The position numbers were made by a program, and so were the translations under genes. Shown piece after piece: positions 6,010 through 39,725 of a DNA stretch of 40,653 nt (position 1 is the stretch's first letter; each line of letters opens with the position of its first letter). Below the pieces are notes generated by a model, which searched no databases, was not told where the DNA came from, and saw only the letters and a program-made list of their open reading frames with translations. Origin of the DNA: an uncultured Chloracidobacterium sp. (GTDB lineage Bacteria; Acidobacteriota; Blastocatellia; Chloracidobacteriales; Chloracidobacteriaceae); NCBI GenBank assembly GCA_937966115.1, contig CALCKX010000017.1, positions 1 to 40,653 of the forward strand. The letters run 5' to 3'.

Positions 6010-6144
6010 TTGCTTGCCACCCGACCTAGCGAAAGTCGCCCTGACTTTTCAGGCCCCGAGCGGAATGCTTTTTTCGAGAAGGAAGGCTCCAGAGGGGAGT
6101 CTGCTCAAGCTTCTGGCCAGTCTCCTGCCCAGCGAGGAGCGCCG

Positions 6145-6996
6145 ATGATTCGGAGCCCGCTTCGCTATCCGGGCGGGAAATCGCGCGGAATAAAAAGCCT
6201 GATTCGCTTTATTCCTCCAGCTTTCAGCGAATACCGCGAGCCATTCATCGGCGGCGGCTCCTTTTTTGTTTATCTGCGACAGCTATATCCAGACCTGAGG
6301 ATGTGGATTAACGACCTCAATCCTGAGCTCTTTTGCTTCTGGAAGTGCGCGCAGGAAGATGCCGTCAAATTGATGCGCGAAATCCTGAAGCTAAAGTTAG
6401 AGAGAGTGGACGGCAGAGGGCTTTTTTATGAACTGCTCCAAATGGAAACGTCAAAGATGAGCCAGTTTGAGCGGGCGGTGCGGTTTTTCGTTCTCAATCG
6501 GATAACCTTCTCCGGCGTGGTCGAGGCCGGCGGCTACTCCGAAGGGGCTTTTATCGGAAGATTTACAAAGTCATCAATCGAGCGGATCGCTCCATTGGGG
6601 GAAATCCTGGACGGCGTTGAAATTACCAACTTGGACTACAAGAGCTTGCTGATGGATGGAGATGGGCGAGTTTTTACTTTTCTCGATCCTCCGTATCGCT
6701 CGGCGAAAAAATTATATGGCAAGCATGGCAGGCTTCACGAAGTTTTCGATCACGTCGAGTTTTCAGAAAGAATGAGGGAGTGCAGACATCGCTGGCTGAT
6801 CACTTACGATGACTCTCCTGAAATTCGAGAGAGCTTTCGCTTCGCGAATCTTTATTGTTGGAAGCTTCAGTATGGGATGAACAACTACAAGCGGGGCAAG
6901 GCTGAAAAAGGCTCTGAATTATTCATCTCCAGCCATCCGCTGCCAATGGGCGAGCAAGCCGGCGGCGCGGATGATCCGATCCAGCGCGCATTTTAG
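6145..6996 (+). CDS. D12-class (Dam-like) N6-adenine DNA methyltransferase
   Basis: PLRYPGGKSR, EPFIGGGSFFVYL, DPPY catalytic motif (FLDPPYRSAKK), alpha-class order. ATG 6145 preceded by GAGGAG; the supplied ORF starts upstream at 6010. Confidence 0.9.
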   Translation: MIRSPLRYPGGKSRGIKSLIRFIPPAFSEYREPFIGGGSFFVYLRQLYPDLRMWINDLNPELFCFWKCAQEDAVKLMREILKLKLERVDGRGLFYELLQMETSKMSQFERAVRFFVLNRITFSGVVEAGGYSEGAFIGRFTKSSIERIAPLGEILDGVEITNLDYKSLLMDGDGRVFTFLDPPYRSAKKLYGKHGRLHEVFDHVEFSERMRECRHRWLITYDDSPEIRESFRFANLYCWKLQYGMNNYKRGKAEKGSELFISSHPLPMGEQAGGADDPIQRAF

Positions 6997-7063: not shown

Positions 7064-8422
7064 CTAAATGACTGATGCGTCGGCGCGGCTCAGCCGGTGA
7101 AAGCGCGCCAGAAACAGTCCGGCCGCCAGGGCGAGGCCCGCGACATAGCCCGTCCAAATGCCGGCCTCGCGCCAGCCGAGCGGAAATGCCAGCGCATAGC
7201 TCGTTGGCAGGGCTACCAGCAGGTAAGCGATGAACGCCAGCGCGGTTGGCGCGGCGGCGTCGGTTAGCGCGCGCAGGGCGGCGAGCATCACCACTTGCAA
7301 GCCGTCAACCAGCTGGAAGGCGGCCGCGAACAGCAGCAGCTTCGCCGCCAGGCCAATGACGGCCGAATCTCTGGTGTAGAGCCGCGGTAGCTCTGAGCGC
7401 AGCGCCAAAATCGCCAGGGCCGTCAAGCTCATATAAGCCAAGACAATGCGCGCTGCGGCAAATCCGGCCGCGCGCATCGCCGCTCGCTCGCCCGCGCCAA
7501 AGTAGTAGCTAACCCGGATGGTCGCCGCGGCGGCGATGCCGGACGCGCCCATGAAAGTCAGCGATGCAATGCCGATGGCAATTTGGTGAGCGGCCTGCTC
7601 GGTTTCGCCCAGCCATCCCATCATCAGCGCGCCGGCGGCAAAGGCGCTGACTTCGAGCGTGAACTGTCCGCCCAGCGGCAGGCCAAGCCTGAGGTAACGT
7701 TGCGCGACGGCGCGGCTCCAGGGCGCGGCTCGCAGCGCCGAGCGGTAGGGCGCGAAGAGCCGCAGCTTGATGAAAAAGATCGCGAAGGCGACCGGCAGGG
7801 CGAGCCTGACGAGGAGCGTCGCCAGCCCCGCGCCGGCGAGTCCAAGGCGGGGAAAGCCCCAGTGACCGAAGATCAGCGCGTAGTTCAGGATGACATTGAG
7901 CAGCGTTTCCAGGACCGTGATGGCGGCGGCAATCCGAGTGTTGCCAATGCCTTCGGTAAACTGCCGAAACGTCTGAAAGGCGATGACCGGCGCGAGGGAC
8001 GCGACCAGGAGCAAGTAGTAGGCGCCGGCTGCCGTCGCGACGGGCGGCGCTTGCCCCAGGCGGCCGAGCCAAGGATAAAGCGCCAACAGGGCGAGCGCGA
8101 CCAGCAACGCGACCGCCAGATTGACGGCTGCGCCATTTTTGAGCCATTGCGCCGCGCCGGCGACATCGTTGGCGCCGCGCGCCGCGCTGACCAACGGCGT
8201 CAGGGCGACGGTGAAGCCGACCGCGAACACCAGGCCCACGATGAAAACGCTCTGCGCGAACGACGAGGCGGCCAGGGCCGTCGTGTCATAATGGCCCAGC
8301 ATGATGCTGTCCGTCACCTGCACGACGAGGTGCCCCATCTGCGAGAGCATGATGGGGATGGCCAGCTTGATATGCGCCGCATAGTGGCCGGATGGGCGGC
8401 GCAGGGAAGCGTCTGCCGACAT
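7064..8422 (-). CDS. MATE-family multidrug/metabolite exporter
   Basis: About 12 TM segments; IPIMLSQMGHLVVQVTDSIMLGHYDTTALAASSFAQSVF; second-half repeat LPLGGQFTLEVSAFAAGALMMGWLG. Confidence 0.9.
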   Translation of the reverse strand: MSADASLRRPSGHYAAHIKLAIPIMLSQMGHLVVQVTDSIMLGHYDTTALAASSFAQSVFIVGLVFAVGFTVALTPLVSAARGANDVAGAAQWLKNGAAVNLAVALLVALALLALYPWLGRLGQAPPVATAAGAYYLLLVASLAPVIAFQTFRQFTEGIGNTRIAAAITVLETLLNVILNYALIFGHWGFPRLGLAGAGLATLLVRLALPVAFAIFFIKLRLFAPYRSALRAAPWSRAVAQRYLRLGLPLGGQFTLEVSAFAAGALMMGWLGETEQAAHQIAIGIASLTFMGASGIAAAATIRVSYYFGAGERAAMRAAGFAAARIVLAYMSLTALAILALRSELPRLYTRDSAVIGLAAKLLLFAAAFQLVDGLQVVMLAALRALTDAAAPTALAFIAYLLVALPTSYALAFPLGWREAGIWTGYVAGLALAAGLFLARFHRLSRADASVI

Positions 8423-8437
8423 CGCGTGACGCGCGCG

Positions 8438-10213
8438 CTAGCCAACCGTCGTGGGCAGGTAACGATGCGTCTCGGCTGGCGCCCTGGCTGCGGCGGCGCC
8501 CGCCGGCGCGGGCGAAACGCTGGCGGCGCGAACCGCCGCCATCAAGCTTGGGTCGAGTTCCCGACCAATGACGACCAGCGAGCTTTCCGATGCCGCCCCG
8601 CACGGGTTGAGGCTCAATGACTGCCCGGCATACTCCAGGCGCAGCCAGCCGCCCGCCGTCTTGAAGACGCCTTTGGCGCGGGCGACATCGCCAAAGCGCC
8701 CGGCGGCAATGGACTCAAAGAGGCGCTGCAAGGCGGCGGCGTCGAAGGCGGCGGCGAAAGTTTCCGCGCGTTGCTCGAAGTTCAGCCGGGGCGGCAGGCT
8801 TTCGCCCATACAGGCGTCTTCCTGCGTGTCGCTGAGGTCGCGCAGGCGAATTCGCCCGAAGCTAGTGCGGATGACGCGGGCCGTCGGGTTGCAGCCAGCG
8901 ATCCGGTCGTCAATCCGGTTCAGCTCGGCTTGCGATAGCCCATCGCACTTGTTGACGACAACCGTGGCGGCTGCCTCGACGTAGGCTTCAATCGCCGCCT
9001 GAACGGCCCGGTCGGCAGTCAGCCACTGCTTGCCGTCCACCACCGCTACGACGCGAATTGGCCCAAGCAATTCGCGGCAACCTGGCTGATGCAGCGTGCC
9101 AAGCAGGTCGCCGAGCGCCGCCGCGCCGGACGGCTCGATAAGAATCCGCTCTGGCGCATGCTCGCGGATGAGCCGGGACAAGGTCGCCGCGACGTTACGC
9201 GAAAGCGTGCAGCACAAGCACCCGCCGGCCAGCTCGACCACCGGCGCGACCTCGGCGCCGCTTTCGCTGTCTCCGGCGCTTTCTCGGAGCCGCGCGCCGT
9301 CCAGCCCGACATCGGCGAGTTCATTGACTAGCACGATGGTTTTCGGATCGAGCTGGGGGATGAGGTTGCGCAGCAAGCTGGTCTTGCCGGAGCCGAGAAA
9401 GCCGCCGATGACATCCACGGTTGGCTTGACTTCAGGCAACTGGCGCGAAAGCAAGCCCCAGGCCCAGACGCCGACCGGCTGCGGCAAAATGAGCCACCAG
9501 TGTTCGAGAATCGCCAGCGCCATGAGCGCGCAGGAGAGTCCGTTGGCCGTGGCTGTGAAGGCGTCGGGCGCCTGCATGGCGCGGTAGAAAAGCCAGTGCG
9601 CCACGGCCGTCGAGATGGTGACCGAGAACGGGAAGAACCAGTTGATGGGCCGCTTGGAGAAAAACTGTGTCATTCGGCGCAGGTGCTCCGGCAGGTATTC
9701 CTCGTTGAGGTTGCGGACGCCAAAAAACACGTTGAGCTTGGCGGATTGATGCATCCACCAGTGGATGGCGAATGTCCACAGCGCGACCTGATTTGGCCCC
9801 GGGGTCGCCGCCCAAACCAGCGCGAAGCCGATGAAGATAGATAACTCGTGGAAGAGATTGGCCTTGACGCCGTGCGCGAAGTGCCGCCAGCCGCCGCAGT
9901 TCGGCGGACAGGGGCGAACCGCCAGCCCGACGACATAGCCGGTGTAATAGCTCGTCTCGAACCAGCCCCACGCCACAATCCCAAGGAGAAAGCCCAGCGC
10001 CGCGCCCAGCGGCGTTGCCCAGCGGCTGACGCTGGGCATGAGGAGCAGCGCCGCGATGGCAAGCAGCGAGGAAGTCGCCATGACTGGTCGGCGCCAGCTT
10101 TGACGCCCGCAGGCGAAGATGATCGCGACGGTCGCGGCCCACCATACGGCGACGGCGAGCAACGGAAGCCCAAGCCAAAGCAGCCACGGGCTTTGCAAAC
10201 TGGTGTCAGGCAT
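8438..10213 (-). CDS. Fusion protein: N-terminal PuhE-like (DUF3623) photosynthetic complex assembly domain + C-terminal COG0523/CobW-P47K GTPase (metallochaperone family)
   Basis: aa ~1-257: polytopic, PGPNQVALWTFAIHWWMHQSAKLNVFFGVRNLNEEYLPEHLRRMTQFFSKRPINWFFPFSV...LAILEHWWLILPQP (PuhE hallmark block). aa ~264-591: DVIGGFLGSGKTSLL (Walker A), VELAGGCLCC (CxCC), ILIEPSG, NKCDGLS, CobW_C-like end. Uninterrupted ORF. Confidence 0.88.
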   Translation of the reverse strand: MPDTSLQSPWLLWLGLPLLAVAVWWAATVAIIFACGRQSWRRPVMATSSLLAIAALLLMPSVSRWATPLGAALGFLLGIVAWGWFETSYYTGYVVGLAVRPCPPNCGGWRHFAHGVKANLFHELSIFIGFALVWAATPGPNQVALWTFAIHWWMHQSAKLNVFFGVRNLNEEYLPEHLRRMTQFFSKRPINWFFPFSVTISTAVAHWLFYRAMQAPDAFTATANGLSCALMALAILEHWWLILPQPVGVWAWGLLSRQLPEVKPTVDVIGGFLGSGKTSLLRNLIPQLDPKTIVLVNELADVGLDGARLRESAGDSESGAEVAPVVELAGGCLCCTLSRNVAATLSRLIREHAPERILIEPSGAAALGDLLGTLHQPGCRELLGPIRVVAVVDGKQWLTADRAVQAAIEAYVEAAATVVVNKCDGLSQAELNRIDDRIAGCNPTARVIRTSFGRIRLRDLSDTQEDACMGESLPPRLNFEQRAETFAAAFDAAALQRLFESIAAGRFGDVARAKGVFKTAGGWLRLEYAGQSLSLNPCGAASESSLVVIGRELDPSLMAAVRAASVSPAPAGAAAARAPAETHRYLPTTVG

Positions 10214-10352
10214 CGCTGAAGCGGGGGCGCAGGAAATTGGCCGGCGCGAGTGGCGCGTGCGCGCCCGGCCCAGCCTGCCACCAACCTACTCTGCGTCGAG
10301 CGCGCCTGCAATCAAATCCCGGATGCGGGGAAAGCGCTCGCGGACGCTCTTT

Positions 10353-28552: not shown

Positions 28553-30208
28553 TCACGCCGAAGGCACGGCGGCCAGTGGCAAGTGAATCGTAAACGTTGT
28601 GCCTTGTCCAAGGACGCTATGACAGGCGATGTCGCCGTCGTGACCCTCGATGATTCGCCGACAGATGCCTAGCCCAAGCCCGGTGCCTTCGCTCCCCTTG
28701 GTCGTAAAAAAAGGTTCCCAGATTCGTTGCAGGTTTTCTGGCGAAATGCCGCAGCCAGTGTCCGATACCGTGATTCTGGCACTTCCTTCGACTTCGTCAA
28801 CCCGTACCGTAAGCTCGCCCGGCTGCCCCTGCATCGCCTGCGCGCCATTGCGAAGCAGATTGAGCAACACCTGCATCATCTTGTCGCGGTTCAGGCTGAC
28901 ATAGGGCGTGGCGTCGGCGTGAAGCGTGGCGCGACAGGCTTTCACAAGCGGGTCGTAGCGGGCGAAATTGAGCGCCTCGGTGACGATGGGAACTAGCGGC
29001 TGCACGGTTTTCTCATAGGCCTTGGCCTCCGGGCGCGCAAAGTCCCGAATCTCGTTGACCATGGATACCATGCGTTGCTGGGCGTTGAGAATGAGCTGGA
29101 TAAGCTGGCGCTGGCGCTGGTCCTCGGCGTCGCTCATGAGAATTTCGGCGGCGGTGAGCGCCGAAAGCTGGTTCTTCAGCTCATGCGCGATGCCGCTGGC
29201 AAACTGCCCCAGCGTGGCCAGTTTCTCGCTGTTGATGAGGCGTTCCTGAGTGGCGCGCAGCTCCTCGATGAGGCGCAAGTTCTCGATGACAAACCCGGCC
29301 TGCTGCGTCAGGGCGAGAAAGTATTCCAGCTCTTCATCGCTGAACTGGGTTTCGGCCAGCAGATTATCCACGTAGCACACGCCGCGCACGTGCTGCGGAG
29401 AGCCAATCGGCGCGCACATGACCGAGTGGATGGATTGTTGGATGACGCTCGAAGTGGAGGCGAAGCGCGTGTCGGAAAGAGCGTCAAAGCTGCTTATGGC
29501 GACGTTTTGCTCGAAGGACTTAAGGGCGATGGTGAGGCTTGGCTGCGCCTGCGTCCCGCCCTCCCGCGTTTGCGACAGGCGAACTTCAAGCGCGCCAGTC
29601 GTCGGATCGCGCATCATGATGAAGCACCGCTCGGCCGGGAGCGTCTCCATCGCCGCGTTCAGCAAGCACTCCAGCAGGGCGTGGGTGCTGCTGGCCGCGA
29701 GCATCTGCCGGTTGAAGTCGTTGAGCGCCTTGAGCCGGTTGAGGGTGAAGTCCGTGATGTTTTCGGCGCTGTCGAGCAGCGCAGTGTTAAGAAAGCGCGA
29801 CCGCGGGCTAGCAATGACCGTCGTCAGCCGATCCGTCGTGCGCTGTTCCTCGTGCGTTCTGGACGCGCCATCGCTTTCCGGCGAAATCGCATGCGTCTCG
29901 AAGAGAAACGTCACGGGATGGACATCGCCCAGTTGGAACTGATCGCCCGATTGCAAGACATGGGTGGTCACGCGCTCGCCGTTGAGCAAAATCCCGCCGG
30001 TGCTCTGATTGTCGCGCAGGATGAATTGGCCATCCTCGTAGATAATCTCGGCATGTCGCCGCGAGACATAAGAGTTGTTGATCTGGAGGTCATTGGTCCG
30101 TAGTCGGCCGATGCTAAACACGGGGCGATTGATTCGCGCGGTTCGCTGAAACCCCTGGCTGTCGAGGTAGCTCAGCGTGGCATAGGTAGTGACCGGGACT
30201 TCCGACAT
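28553..30208 (-). CDS. Sensor histidine kinase: FHA + GAF + HisKA + HATPase_c
   Basis: FSIGRLRTNDLQINNSYVSRRHAEI (FHA), GAF region, FASGIAHELKNQLSALTA (H box), NLLRNGAQAM (N box), DTGCGI, GTGLGLGICRRIIEGHDG. Confidence 0.92.
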   Translation of the reverse strand: MSEVPVTTYATLSYLDSQGFQRTARINRPVFSIGRLRTNDLQINNSYVSRRHAEIIYEDGQFILRDNQSTGGILLNGERVTTHVLQSGDQFQLGDVHPVTFLFETHAISPESDGASRTHEEQRTTDRLTTVIASPRSRFLNTALLDSAENITDFTLNRLKALNDFNRQMLAASSTHALLECLLNAAMETLPAERCFIMMRDPTTGALEVRLSQTREGGTQAQPSLTIALKSFEQNVAISSFDALSDTRFASTSSVIQQSIHSVMCAPIGSPQHVRGVCYVDNLLAETQFSDEELEYFLALTQQAGFVIENLRLIEELRATQERLINSEKLATLGQFASGIAHELKNQLSALTAAEILMSDAEDQRQRQLIQLILNAQQRMVSMVNEIRDFARPEAKAYEKTVQPLVPIVTEALNFARYDPLVKACRATLHADATPYVSLNRDKMMQVLLNLLRNGAQAMQGQPGELTVRVDEVEGSARITVSDTGCGISPENLQRIWEPFFTTKGSEGTGLGLGICRRIIEGHDGDIACHSVLGQGTTFTIHLPLAAVPSA

Positions 30209-37339: not shown

Positions 37340-38329
37340 TCAAGCTGATGGGCCGCTGTCGGACGCGTTGCCGTCAGGCGGGTCGGAGGGGCGATAAGGG
37401 ATGCCATAGGCGCGAAGCTTCTCGTAGAGATTCTTGCGGCTGATGCCCAGAATCCGCGCCGCTTCGGCCTTGCGCCAGCCCACCTGCTGGAGAATTTCGC
37501 GCACGTAGGCGGTTTCGAGTTCCGCCAGGGTCGGCTTGCGGGTCGGATGCCGCATCAGCGTCGCCGCGGAGGTCAGGCGGGGCGGCAGGTGCTCAGGATG
37601 GATGACCTTGCCGCCGGTCGTCAGCGCCGCCCGCTCCATCGCATGACGCAGCTCGCGGACGTTGCCCGGAAAGTCATAGCGCTCCAGGATGCGAGCGGTT
37701 TCCGGCGCGAGAGTCAGCAAGGGGAGCTGATGACGCGCCGCAATCTGCGTCAAAAAATGACGCGCGAGGGGCGCGATGTCGCCGGGACGCGCCCGGAGCG
37801 GCGGCGCTTCGAGCGTCACGACATTGAGCCGGTGAAACAAGTCAGCCCGAAAGGCTTGCCGCGCCACCGCGCCAGCCAGGTCGAGGTTGGTCACGGCAAT
37901 GAGCCGGACGTCAAGCTTCGTCGGGCGCGTTCCGCCTAAGCGCATGACGCGCCGCTCCTCAATGACGCGCAACAGCTTGGCTTGGGCGCTCGGCGAGAGC
38001 GCGGCGACTTCATCCAGGACGAGCGTTCCCCGCTGCGCCGCTTCGAGGCGGCCGACCTTGGCGGCGGACGCGCCCGTGAACGCCCCGCGCTCGAAGCCGA
38101 AGAGTTCCGCTTCGAGCAGCGTTTCTGGCAGCGCGCCGCAGTCAATGACGACGAAGGGACCGGCCGCCCGGCGGCTGTGGTCATGAAGCCAGTGCGCGAG
38201 CAGGCTTTTGCCCGTCCCGCTTTCGCCGGTAATAACGACGGTCGCGTCGGTGGGGGCTACGCGCGCGGCGTCGCGCAGCAGCGCCTGCAACTCCGGCGAC
38301 GCGCAGATGAAAAGCTCCAGAGCGTCCAT
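37340..38329 (-). CDS. Sigma-54-dependent transcriptional activator (AAA+ and Fis-type HTH, no receiver domain)
   Basis: GESGTGKSLLAHWLHDHS, LFGFERGAFTGA (GAFTGA loop), VRLIAVTN, FPGNVRELRH, C-term AEAARILGISRKNLYEKLRAYGI. Confidence 0.95.
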   Translation of the reverse strand: MDALELFICASPELQALLRDAARVAPTDATVVITGESGTGKSLLAHWLHDHSRRAAGPFVVIDCGALPETLLEAELFGFERGAFTGASAAKVGRLEAAQRGTLVLDEVAALSPSAQAKLLRVIEERRVMRLGGTRPTKLDVRLIAVTNLDLAGAVARQAFRADLFHRLNVVTLEAPPLRARPGDIAPLARHFLTQIAARHQLPLLTLAPETARILERYDFPGNVRELRHAMERAALTTGGKVIHPEHLPPRLTSAATLMRHPTRKPTLAELETAYVREILQQVGWRKAEAARILGISRKNLYEKLRAYGIPYRPSDPPDGNASDSGPSA

Positions 38330-38343
38330 GCGGCCAACGTCCC

Positions 38344-39675
38344 TCAGCTCCGCAGGCTGATGCCCAGCGCCTTGATGCGGCGGTAAAGGTAGCTGCGGTC
38401 GATGCCCAGCGCTTCGGCCGCTTGGCTCACGTTGCCGTCGAACTCCGCCAGCTTGCGGCGCACCAGCTCCCGCTCGAAGGCTTCGCTGCCTTCGCGCAGC
38501 GAGCCGAATTGAAAGCTGGTCCAGATGGAGCTAGGCGCCGGCGCGAGCGGAATGTGCTCGGCGGTGACCAGCGCGGTGACGCCGGTAATGACCAGCCGCT
38601 CGACGAGGTTGCGCAACTCGCGAACGTTGCCGGGCCAGTCGTGGCGGCGCAGCTTTTCGTAGGCGTCCTCCGTCAGAGACAGCGGCGGACGCCCATGTTG
38701 CTGGCTGAACTGGCTGGCGAAGTGGGCGACCAGCGCCGGAATGTCCTCCAGGCGCTCGCGCAGCGGCGGCGCTTGAAACGGAACGACGTTGAGGCGGTAA
38801 AACAAATCCGCTCGGAACTGTCCGCGCTCGATGGCTTCGTCCAGGCGCTTGTTGGTGGCGGCAATCACGCGCACGTTCACCTGGCGCGCGCGCTGGCTGC
38901 CGACCGGCTCGATCAGCCCGGTCTCGAGCGCGCGCAGCAGTTTCGCCTGCATCCGTAGACTCATATCGCCGATTTCATCGAGGAACAGCGTCCCCCCGTC
39001 AGCCTGCTCAAACTTCCCGCGCCGCGAATCGGTCGCGCCAGTGAACGACCCTTTGACGTGGCCGAACAGCTCCGACTCAATCAGGTCTTCCGGGACGGCG
39101 GCGCAGTTGATGGCGACAAACGGGCAGTCGGCGCGTTTGGAGGCCGCATGCAAGGCGAGGGCGACGAGCTCCTTGCCGGTTCCCGATTCACCGTAAATGA
39201 GAACCCGCCCATCGGTCGGACCCGTGAGCGCGATCTGCTGCCGGAGCGCCCGCATCGGAACGCTGTCGCCGACAATTCGACTGTCGCCGACCGTCGTGGT
39301 CGGACGGCGCGTGAGGATGGCGTGGCGGACAGCCTGCAACGTCCGCTCGATATTGAGCGGCTTTTCGATGAAGTCGCTAGCGCCGAGCCGAATGGCGCGC
39401 ACCGCCGTGTCAATCGTGCCGTGGCCGGAAATCATGACCACGGGAAGGTGCGGATGCCGACGCCGGATTTGCTCCAGCGTCGCCATGCCGTCGAGCTGGC
39501 TATTCGGCATGTAGATGTCGAGCAGAACGCAGTCAATCGGCGCGGAGTCCAGCCGGCGCAGCGCCGCGTCGCCGCTTTCGGCTTTTTCGACCGCAAAGCC
39601 TTCGTCTTCGAGCACGCCGCGCAGCGACTCCCGAATGCCGCGCTCGTCATCCACAATCAGAACCGTTTCCGCCAT
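38344..39675 (-). CDS. Sigma-54-dependent response regulator (NtrC/NtrX-like: receiver, AAA+, Fis HTH)
   Basis: ILIVDDE-type receiver (VLIVDDERGIRESLRGVLEDEGF..LLDIYMP..VVMISGHGTIDTAVRAIRLGASDFIEKPL), GESGTGKE, GSFTGA, WPGNVRELRN, HTH QAAEALGIDRSYLYRRIKALGI; ATG 39675. Confidence 0.95.
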   Translation of the reverse strand: MAETVLIVDDERGIRESLRGVLEDEGFAVEKAESGDAALRRLDSAPIDCVLLDIYMPNSQLDGMATLEQIRRRHPHLPVVMISGHGTIDTAVRAIRLGASDFIEKPLNIERTLQAVRHAILTRRPTTTVGDSRIVGDSVPMRALRQQIALTGPTDGRVLIYGESGTGKELVALALHAASKRADCPFVAINCAAVPEDLIESELFGHVKGSFTGATDSRRGKFEQADGGTLFLDEIGDMSLRMQAKLLRALETGLIEPVGSQRARQVNVRVIAATNKRLDEAIERGQFRADLFYRLNVVPFQAPPLRERLEDIPALVAHFASQFSQQHGRPPLSLTEDAYEKLRRHDWPGNVRELRNLVERLVITGVTALVTAEHIPLAPAPSSIWTSFQFGSLREGSEAFERELVRRKLAEFDGNVSQAAEALGIDRSYLYRRIKALGISLRS

Positions 39676-39725
39676 AGCGTTATGATGATGCCGCCGAGAG
39701 ACGAAAAATGCCACGGGGACGCGCC

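Follow-up and report, generated by a model that had tools for sequence, protein, structure and literature searches.

In Chloracidobacterium, a photosynthetic bacterium of hot springs and, to our knowledge, the sole known phototrophic genus of the phylum Acidobacteriota, a PuhE (DUF3623) membrane domain and a complete COG0523 GTPase are joined in one protein, whose gene carries a promoter-proximal element common to late bacteriochlorophyll (BChl) a genes. Both halves belong to known families, and it is their combination in one protein that appears to be new. This fusion very probably acts in the BChl a pathway, and it is tentatively explained here as a membrane-tethered, GTP-gated delivery factor for a metal, probably Zn, late in that pathway, possibly supplying the Zn of Zn-BChl a'. 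The gene lies in a window of 40,653 nucleotides, which is the whole stretch of DNA that was analysed, on a contig belonging to a 2.8-Mb draft genome. An earlier note, made from the letters of this DNA, had claimed one uninterrupted 591-aa ORF, and this was borne out on the minus strand, which is open across all 591 aa, whereas the plus-strand reading of 8438-10213 contains stops. The features of the fusion are given below.

8438..10213, minus strand: PuhE-COG0523 fusion, a single 591-aa ORF with a stop-free reading
9440..10162, minus strand: DUF3623/PuhE domain, residues 18-258, matched by PF12291 and TIGR03055, with seven predicted membrane helices
9749..9763, minus strand: HWWMH, residues 151-155, an HxxxH motif that falls within predicted helix five and is the same in all fusions
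8870..9418, minus strand: COG0523/cobW G domain, residues 266-448 (PF02492, 119.7 bits, E 1.4e-34)
9377..9406, minus strand: Walker A motif GGFLGSGKTS, residues 270-279, conserved in every fusion
9209..9220, minus strand: CxCC metal motif, C332-L-C334-C335, which is C-[LF]-C-C in every fusion
8540..8758, minus strand: CobW_C domain, residues 486-558 (PF07683, 36.2 bits, E 5.6e-9, cut-off 22)

Profile searches of both halves agreed with the domain assignments of the earlier note. The N-terminal half is PuhE/DUF3623, as had been proposed, with Pfam PF12291 reaching 226.7 bits over residues 18-258 (E 3.8e-67, cut-off 27) and NCBIfam TIGR03055 (PuhE) reaching 206.9 bits where its curated cut-off is 164.05. 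Likewise, the C-terminal half is the complete COG0523 GTPase that had been described, since cobW and CobW_C both matched and all the quoted motifs were found, with Walker A, CxCC at 332-335, E360PSG363 and N421KCD424 intact. Only a few residues link the last PuhE segment to the G domain.

The chance that assembly or gene calling joined two separate genes is negligible, because the same ORF recurs across genomes under purifying selection. The fusion was found as one ORF in 6/6 Chloracidobacterium genomes examined, comprising the source, two independent MAGs (CP2_5A, 88% identical in its best segment, and one labelled Blastocatellia, 80%) and three genomes of the genus in 2 contigs each. Cross-genome comparison gave a dN of about 0.03-0.25 against a dS of about 0.4-1.6 in both domains, with dN/dS staying near 0.1 across the PuhE and G domains and rising to as much as about 0.28 in CobW_C, the last 30 or so residues alone being loose. 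Both domains are thus under strong purifying selection. Among 396 Acidobacteriota genomes, DUF3623 was above cut-off in no other genus, a single partial sub-threshold match elsewhere in the phylum (E 4.6e-4) being regarded as chance, and the viral contigs searched held no relatives.

The assignment to the BChl a pathway comes from the region upstream of the gene, where a generic sigma-70 scan called no promoter and an alignment of five species left one conserved block, roughly TTTgATTGC..(14-16)..AAGTAGGTTGGTGGCAGG. The corresponding sites are as follows.

10274..10291, minus strand: promoter-proximal element GAGTAGGTTGGTGGCAGG (WGTAGGYTGRWRDYAGR), about 17-18 bp, some 60 bp before the fusion start codon
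10306..10318, minus strand: conserved upstream block TTTGATTGC/TTGCAG, -35-like, from the five-species alignment
L119, L116, L146 and L115: other sites of the element, at PUCC-bchP, bchX, bchY and the DUF92/phytol-kinase-like gene, respectively

When three genomes were scanned for the 18-mer with up to 3 mismatches, 16 matches were obtained against 11 for the reversed control, a number that is uninformative alone, and the matches recurring at orthologous positions lay 5' of a PUCC gene (followed by bchP), of bchX and of a gene for a DUF92/phytol-kinase-like protein. A degenerate pattern allowing at most one mismatch gave 32 matches in six genomes against 10 for its reversed control, although the four families other than bchY had in part supplied its training sites, so that their counts are not independent; the bchY site was found out of sample. 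All of the zero-mismatch copies in the six genomes (21/21) were located upstream of the fusion, PUCC(-bchP), bchX, bchY or the DUF92 phytol-kinase-like gene, with a nearly fixed spacing to the gene within each of the five families, whereas the chance expectation of the exact element is about 0.09 per genome. It is on these gene identities and on cross-species conservation, not on counts, that the evidence for the element rests. The identities were established by profiles for bchP (TIGR02023, 465.6 bits) and bchX (TIGR02016, above cut-off), and bchY scored 394.9 bits with TIGR02015, just under the cut-off of 425. In the stretches searched, no element was detected upstream of acsF or pscA at up to 4 mismatches.

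The element is therefore a candidate mark of a BChl a regulon in Chloracidobacterium, and the TTTG-like block found 16-18 bp upstream of it suggests a dedicated promoter class, so that a candidate BChl a promoter class has been uncovered in this genus. Since the element is common to these genes, the fusion is grouped with the conversion of chlorophyllide a to BChl a, the addition and recycling of the phytyl tail, and BChl delivery. The earlier note had suggested that the fusion delivers metal from the membrane, gated by GTP, during (bacterio)chlorophyll or reaction-centre assembly; the pathway part of that proposal is supported by the element, which the fusion has in common with bchX, bchY, PUCC-bchP and the phytol-kinase-like gene, whereas the metal and its delivery stay conditional.

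Such co-regulation with bchX, bchY and PUCC-bchP would fit a regulator equally well, in which PuhE modulates BChl production and the GTPase is a nucleotide or metal sensor tuning BChl a synthesis or delivery. We consider this rather unlikely. It agrees with a 2005 paper by Aklujkar et al., listed among the references of PMC11762602, in whose title the puhE gene of R. capsulatus is called a putative negative modulator of BChl production. On the other hand, the complete, conserved CxCC motif and CobW_C domain under purifying selection argue for metal handling, although a sensor would need both too.

Other observations concern the genes that carry the element. The DUF92 protein (L115:1270-2625, L118:1289-2653, L126, L142, L143, L145) has an N-terminal region with RRRLVHVGMG, presumably resembling phytol kinase, followed by a VTE6-like DUF92 region, and judging from this arrangement it may unite phytol kinase and phytyl-phosphate kinase in a single polypeptide that serves tail salvage. 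One-mismatch copies of the element were also seen in one genome each about 9 bp upstream of hemD, encoding uroporphyrinogen-III synthase (L138:1501, minus strand), and about 690 bp upstream of bchI (L150:1501-2203), the latter being doubtful given the distance.

The photosynthetic setting of the fusion departs from that of purple bacteria. The reaction centre of Chloracidobacterium is a homodimeric type-1 centre, and a type-1 reaction-centre protein of the PsaA/PscA type was found in 6/6 genomes, as was acsF, both sited elsewhere in the genome than the fusion; each of the six genomes also encodes one full PUCC-family protein. The absence of puhABC from the window, as had been stated, was confirmed and extends further, since neither the PRCH/puhA nor the PuhC family was detected in any of the six genomes by searches in which a purple plasmid served as positive control. 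With a type-1 centre and no puhA or puhC detected, PuhE thus has a setting here unlike the one in which it works in purple bacteria. In purple bacteria it is a stand-alone protein of about 260-280 aa, found in type-2 organisms in puhABC-(acsF)-puhE clusters that have no neighbouring cobW, whereas in Chloracidobacterium it is fused, lies outside any puh cluster in a type-1 organism and has His in place of L151 and R155. What the two share is the full-length domain match above curated cut-offs and 23 residues that never vary among 5 fusions and 11 stand-alone PuhE proteins, including E86, H122, E123, S157, K159, E237 and H238. Additionally, the puhE cluster of the gammaproteobacterium Thiodictyon has bchE and no acsF. 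PuhE is thus not bound to acsF or to type-2 centres, and BChl a would be the common denominator of its occurrence. Its presence in a type-1 phototroph indicates that its function is probably the handling of BChl a, not the assembly of type-2 reaction centres as such.

Positions 151 and 155 are His/His in all fusions and Leu/Arg in all 11 stand-alone PuhE proteins, and H206 is likewise specific to the fusions. The gain of histidines in the fused PuhE half is not significant with 11 stand-alone sequences (P 0.08); the test had looked stronger with 7 (three of 16 sites) and weakened at 11, when H111 was also found in one stand-alone protein. As a functional hint, the gained histidines are at most suggestive. 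DUF3623 has been described as having seven TM helices and as lacking the TmAT fold, so that it was taken out of the TmAT acyltransferase clan, its former Pfam clan (PMC12423673). In the fusion, seven long helices appeared in low-confidence AlphaFold2 models and six were clear by hydropathy in the PuhE half, the mean pLDDT of 36 for the full protein and 46 for the PuhE half, from a three-sequence input, being too poor for geometry. An odd number of helices with the N-terminus out and the C-terminus in would place the GTPase half in the cytosol, which is consistent with the positive-inside rule when charges are counted by eye.

The conserved residues of this half bear on another explanation, in which the client is a protein, so that the COG0523 domain would metallate either the PuhE half itself, whose helices carry the conserved E86, H122, E123, E237 and H238, or a pathway metalloenzyme, for instance the di-iron AcsF. 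COG0523/G3E proteins usually serve protein clients (PMC2770081, PMC7895991), none of the 16 PuhE sequences varies at the acidic and His positions, and the fusions have the extra HxxxH, and puhE of purple bacteria commonly adjoins acsF. Nevertheless, PuhE needs no fused chaperone to work where it stands alone, acsF lacks the promoter element of the fusion, and the Thiodictyon cluster has puhE without acsF; a protein client is accordingly judged improbable, to about the same degree as a regulator. The regulatory evidence is fitted by both of these readings as well as by Zn insertion.

Regarding the GTPase half, CobW, ZigA, YjiA and YeiR share Walker A, CxCC, ExxG, NKxD and CobW_C with the fusion, which differs from them in being membrane-anchored. 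The fusion scored below the curated cut-offs of CobW (TIGR02475, 91.3 against 332.1 bits), ZigA (NF038288, 77.1 against 600) and YjiA (NF008578, 45.1 against 361). Each complete assembly encodes four full COG0523 proteins, namely a ZigA equivalog (631.8 bits, cut-off 600), a YjiA-like protein, a third near acsF, and the fusion. In a 28-row tree, the fused G domains formed their own long-branched, fully supported clade outside ZigA and YjiA, and the nearest stand-alone COG0523 protein found was only about 30% identical to the fused domain. Among solved structures, the sequence search found YjiA (1nij/4ixm/4ixn) as the sole relative (E 9.5e-10), its H114 aligning with H375. The third, unclassified COG0523 gene lies 3-4 kb from acsF in 6/6 genomes (L055:13178-14269, L058:6977-7981, L060:7908-9017); this linkage was set aside as evidence, since rpsR-like and TPR genes intervene and the block is merely syntenic.

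COG0523 proteins are ubiquitous and often tied to Zn starvation (PMC2770081), so the fusion might be one of convenience, that is, a GTPase of general Zn (or Co) homeostasis anchored in the membrane by chance and unrelated to pigments. This is highly improbable. General Zn chores are otherwise covered, because the genus already has separate ZigA (above cut-off) and YjiA-like paralogues; the fused domain forms a separate long branch, and its gene has the promoter element in common with BChl a genes. As for Co, no B12 genes were found beside the fusion, the window contains no Rfam element, cobalamin riboswitches included, and strains have been described as B12-nonproducing (PMC8245765), hence with little use for CobW.

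The metal of the fused GTPase can be approached by comparison with its relatives. A His stretch is a criterion for CobW (PMC2770081), and an extra cysteine pair is present in CobW and absent from YeiR and YjiA, which are both predicted to take Zn (PMC7895991). The fused domain has neither a His stretch nor, between switch I and CxCC, where the residue numbers of PMC7895991 as we read them place the CobW pair, any cysteine. Because it resembles YeiR and YjiA in these respects, Zn would be its likeliest metal. CobW offers a functional parallel to the model proposed here in being a GTP-gated metal delivery protein at a tetrapyrrole chelation step, the late insertion of Co(II) into cobalamin (PMC7895991), although the fusion differs from it in the His stretch, the extra Cys pair and the B12 gene context, and fails CobW membership. 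The PUCC/BCD-family (LhaA-like) BChl delivery proteins are also membrane factors of BChl supply, with the promoter element in common with the fusion, and differ in having an MFS-type transporter fold and no GTPase.

A Zn step in this pathway would have an obvious pigment. Zn-BChl aP' is a minor pigment throughout the genus (PMC12816986), and in C. thermophilum Zn-BChl a' forms the P840 special pair, accounting for two of 28 (B)Chls (PMC9751088). A 2020 review called the replacement of Mg by Zn unexplained, and 'especially perplexing' in an organism with mostly Mg pigments (PMC7242693). In Acidiphilium, the swap was proposed to occur late in the pathway, after Mg dechelation (PMC4944227). Against a dedicated factor, unbound BChl can also exchange its Mg for Zn, possibly with no enzyme involved (PMC4944227). 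A search for a Staygreen-family Mg-dechelatase gave no match, its control being equally silent. The fusion is a natural candidate for the Zn step because it tethers a COG0523 domain to a membrane protein that handles BChl, and because its gene shares the element of late BChl a genes. PuhE alone is no Zn factor, since stand-alone PuhE occurs in purple bacteria with ordinarily Mg-BChl.

In the mechanism proposed, whose topology, metal, pigment (rather than protein) client and Zn-BChl a' product are all inferred, the PuhE half would be a seven-helix membrane protein (predicted N-out/C-in) handling BChl a or late intermediates, and the COG0523 half, held on the cytosolic face by the short linker, would load a divalent metal, most likely Zn, at CxCC in its Mg-GTP form and release it upon GTP hydrolysis. 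In the most specific version, the Zn2+ supplied would take the place of Mg2+ in the minor share of BChl a that ends up as the Zn-BChl a' special pair. These elements do not deserve equal confidence. That the fusion delivers a metal in the BChl a pathway is somewhat favoured on balance; that its product is Zn-BChl a' is possible and rather doubtful; and that it is a dedicated Zn-insertion (transmetallation) factor, acting in a GTP-gated manner on Mg-free or labile membrane BChl a, is a little more doubtful still. Moreover, binding by PscA alone might select the Zn pigment, which counts against the metal-delivery explanation, and the co-occurrence of the fusion with Zn-BChl a' amounts to one lineage.

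We know of no protein step for a natural Zn-chlorophyll and of no COG0523 protein with a chlorophyll client before this; if the proposed mechanism is true, the fusion would be the first of each. It offers a single-gene handle on the replacement of Mg by Zn in the Chloracidobacterium reaction centre. In the open-access literature searched, no paper was found that pairs PuhE with COG0523/CobW or discusses the fusion in Chloracidobacterium, and the papers on the genus found there do not name the protein.

The genes around the fusion are also conserved, with the following gene lying downstream on the same strand.

7064..8422, minus strand: MATE-family transporter, adjoining the fusion in 6/6 genomes

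In all six genomes (6/6), ispG stands in opposite orientation beside the fusion and the MATE gene. Between ispG and the MATE gene, the window additionally holds a gene for a D12-class N6-adenine DNA methyltransferase (6010-6996, plus strand), which has no counterpart in the same interval of the five relatives and is therefore probably a recent insertion. An upstream a/b hydrolase, considered as BchO, was rejected as a haloalkane-dehalogenase-family protein. Elsewhere in the window are a kinase with FHA, GAF and HisKA domains (28553-30208) and two adjoining sigma-54 activator genes (37340-39714, minus strand), one of which has a receiver domain.
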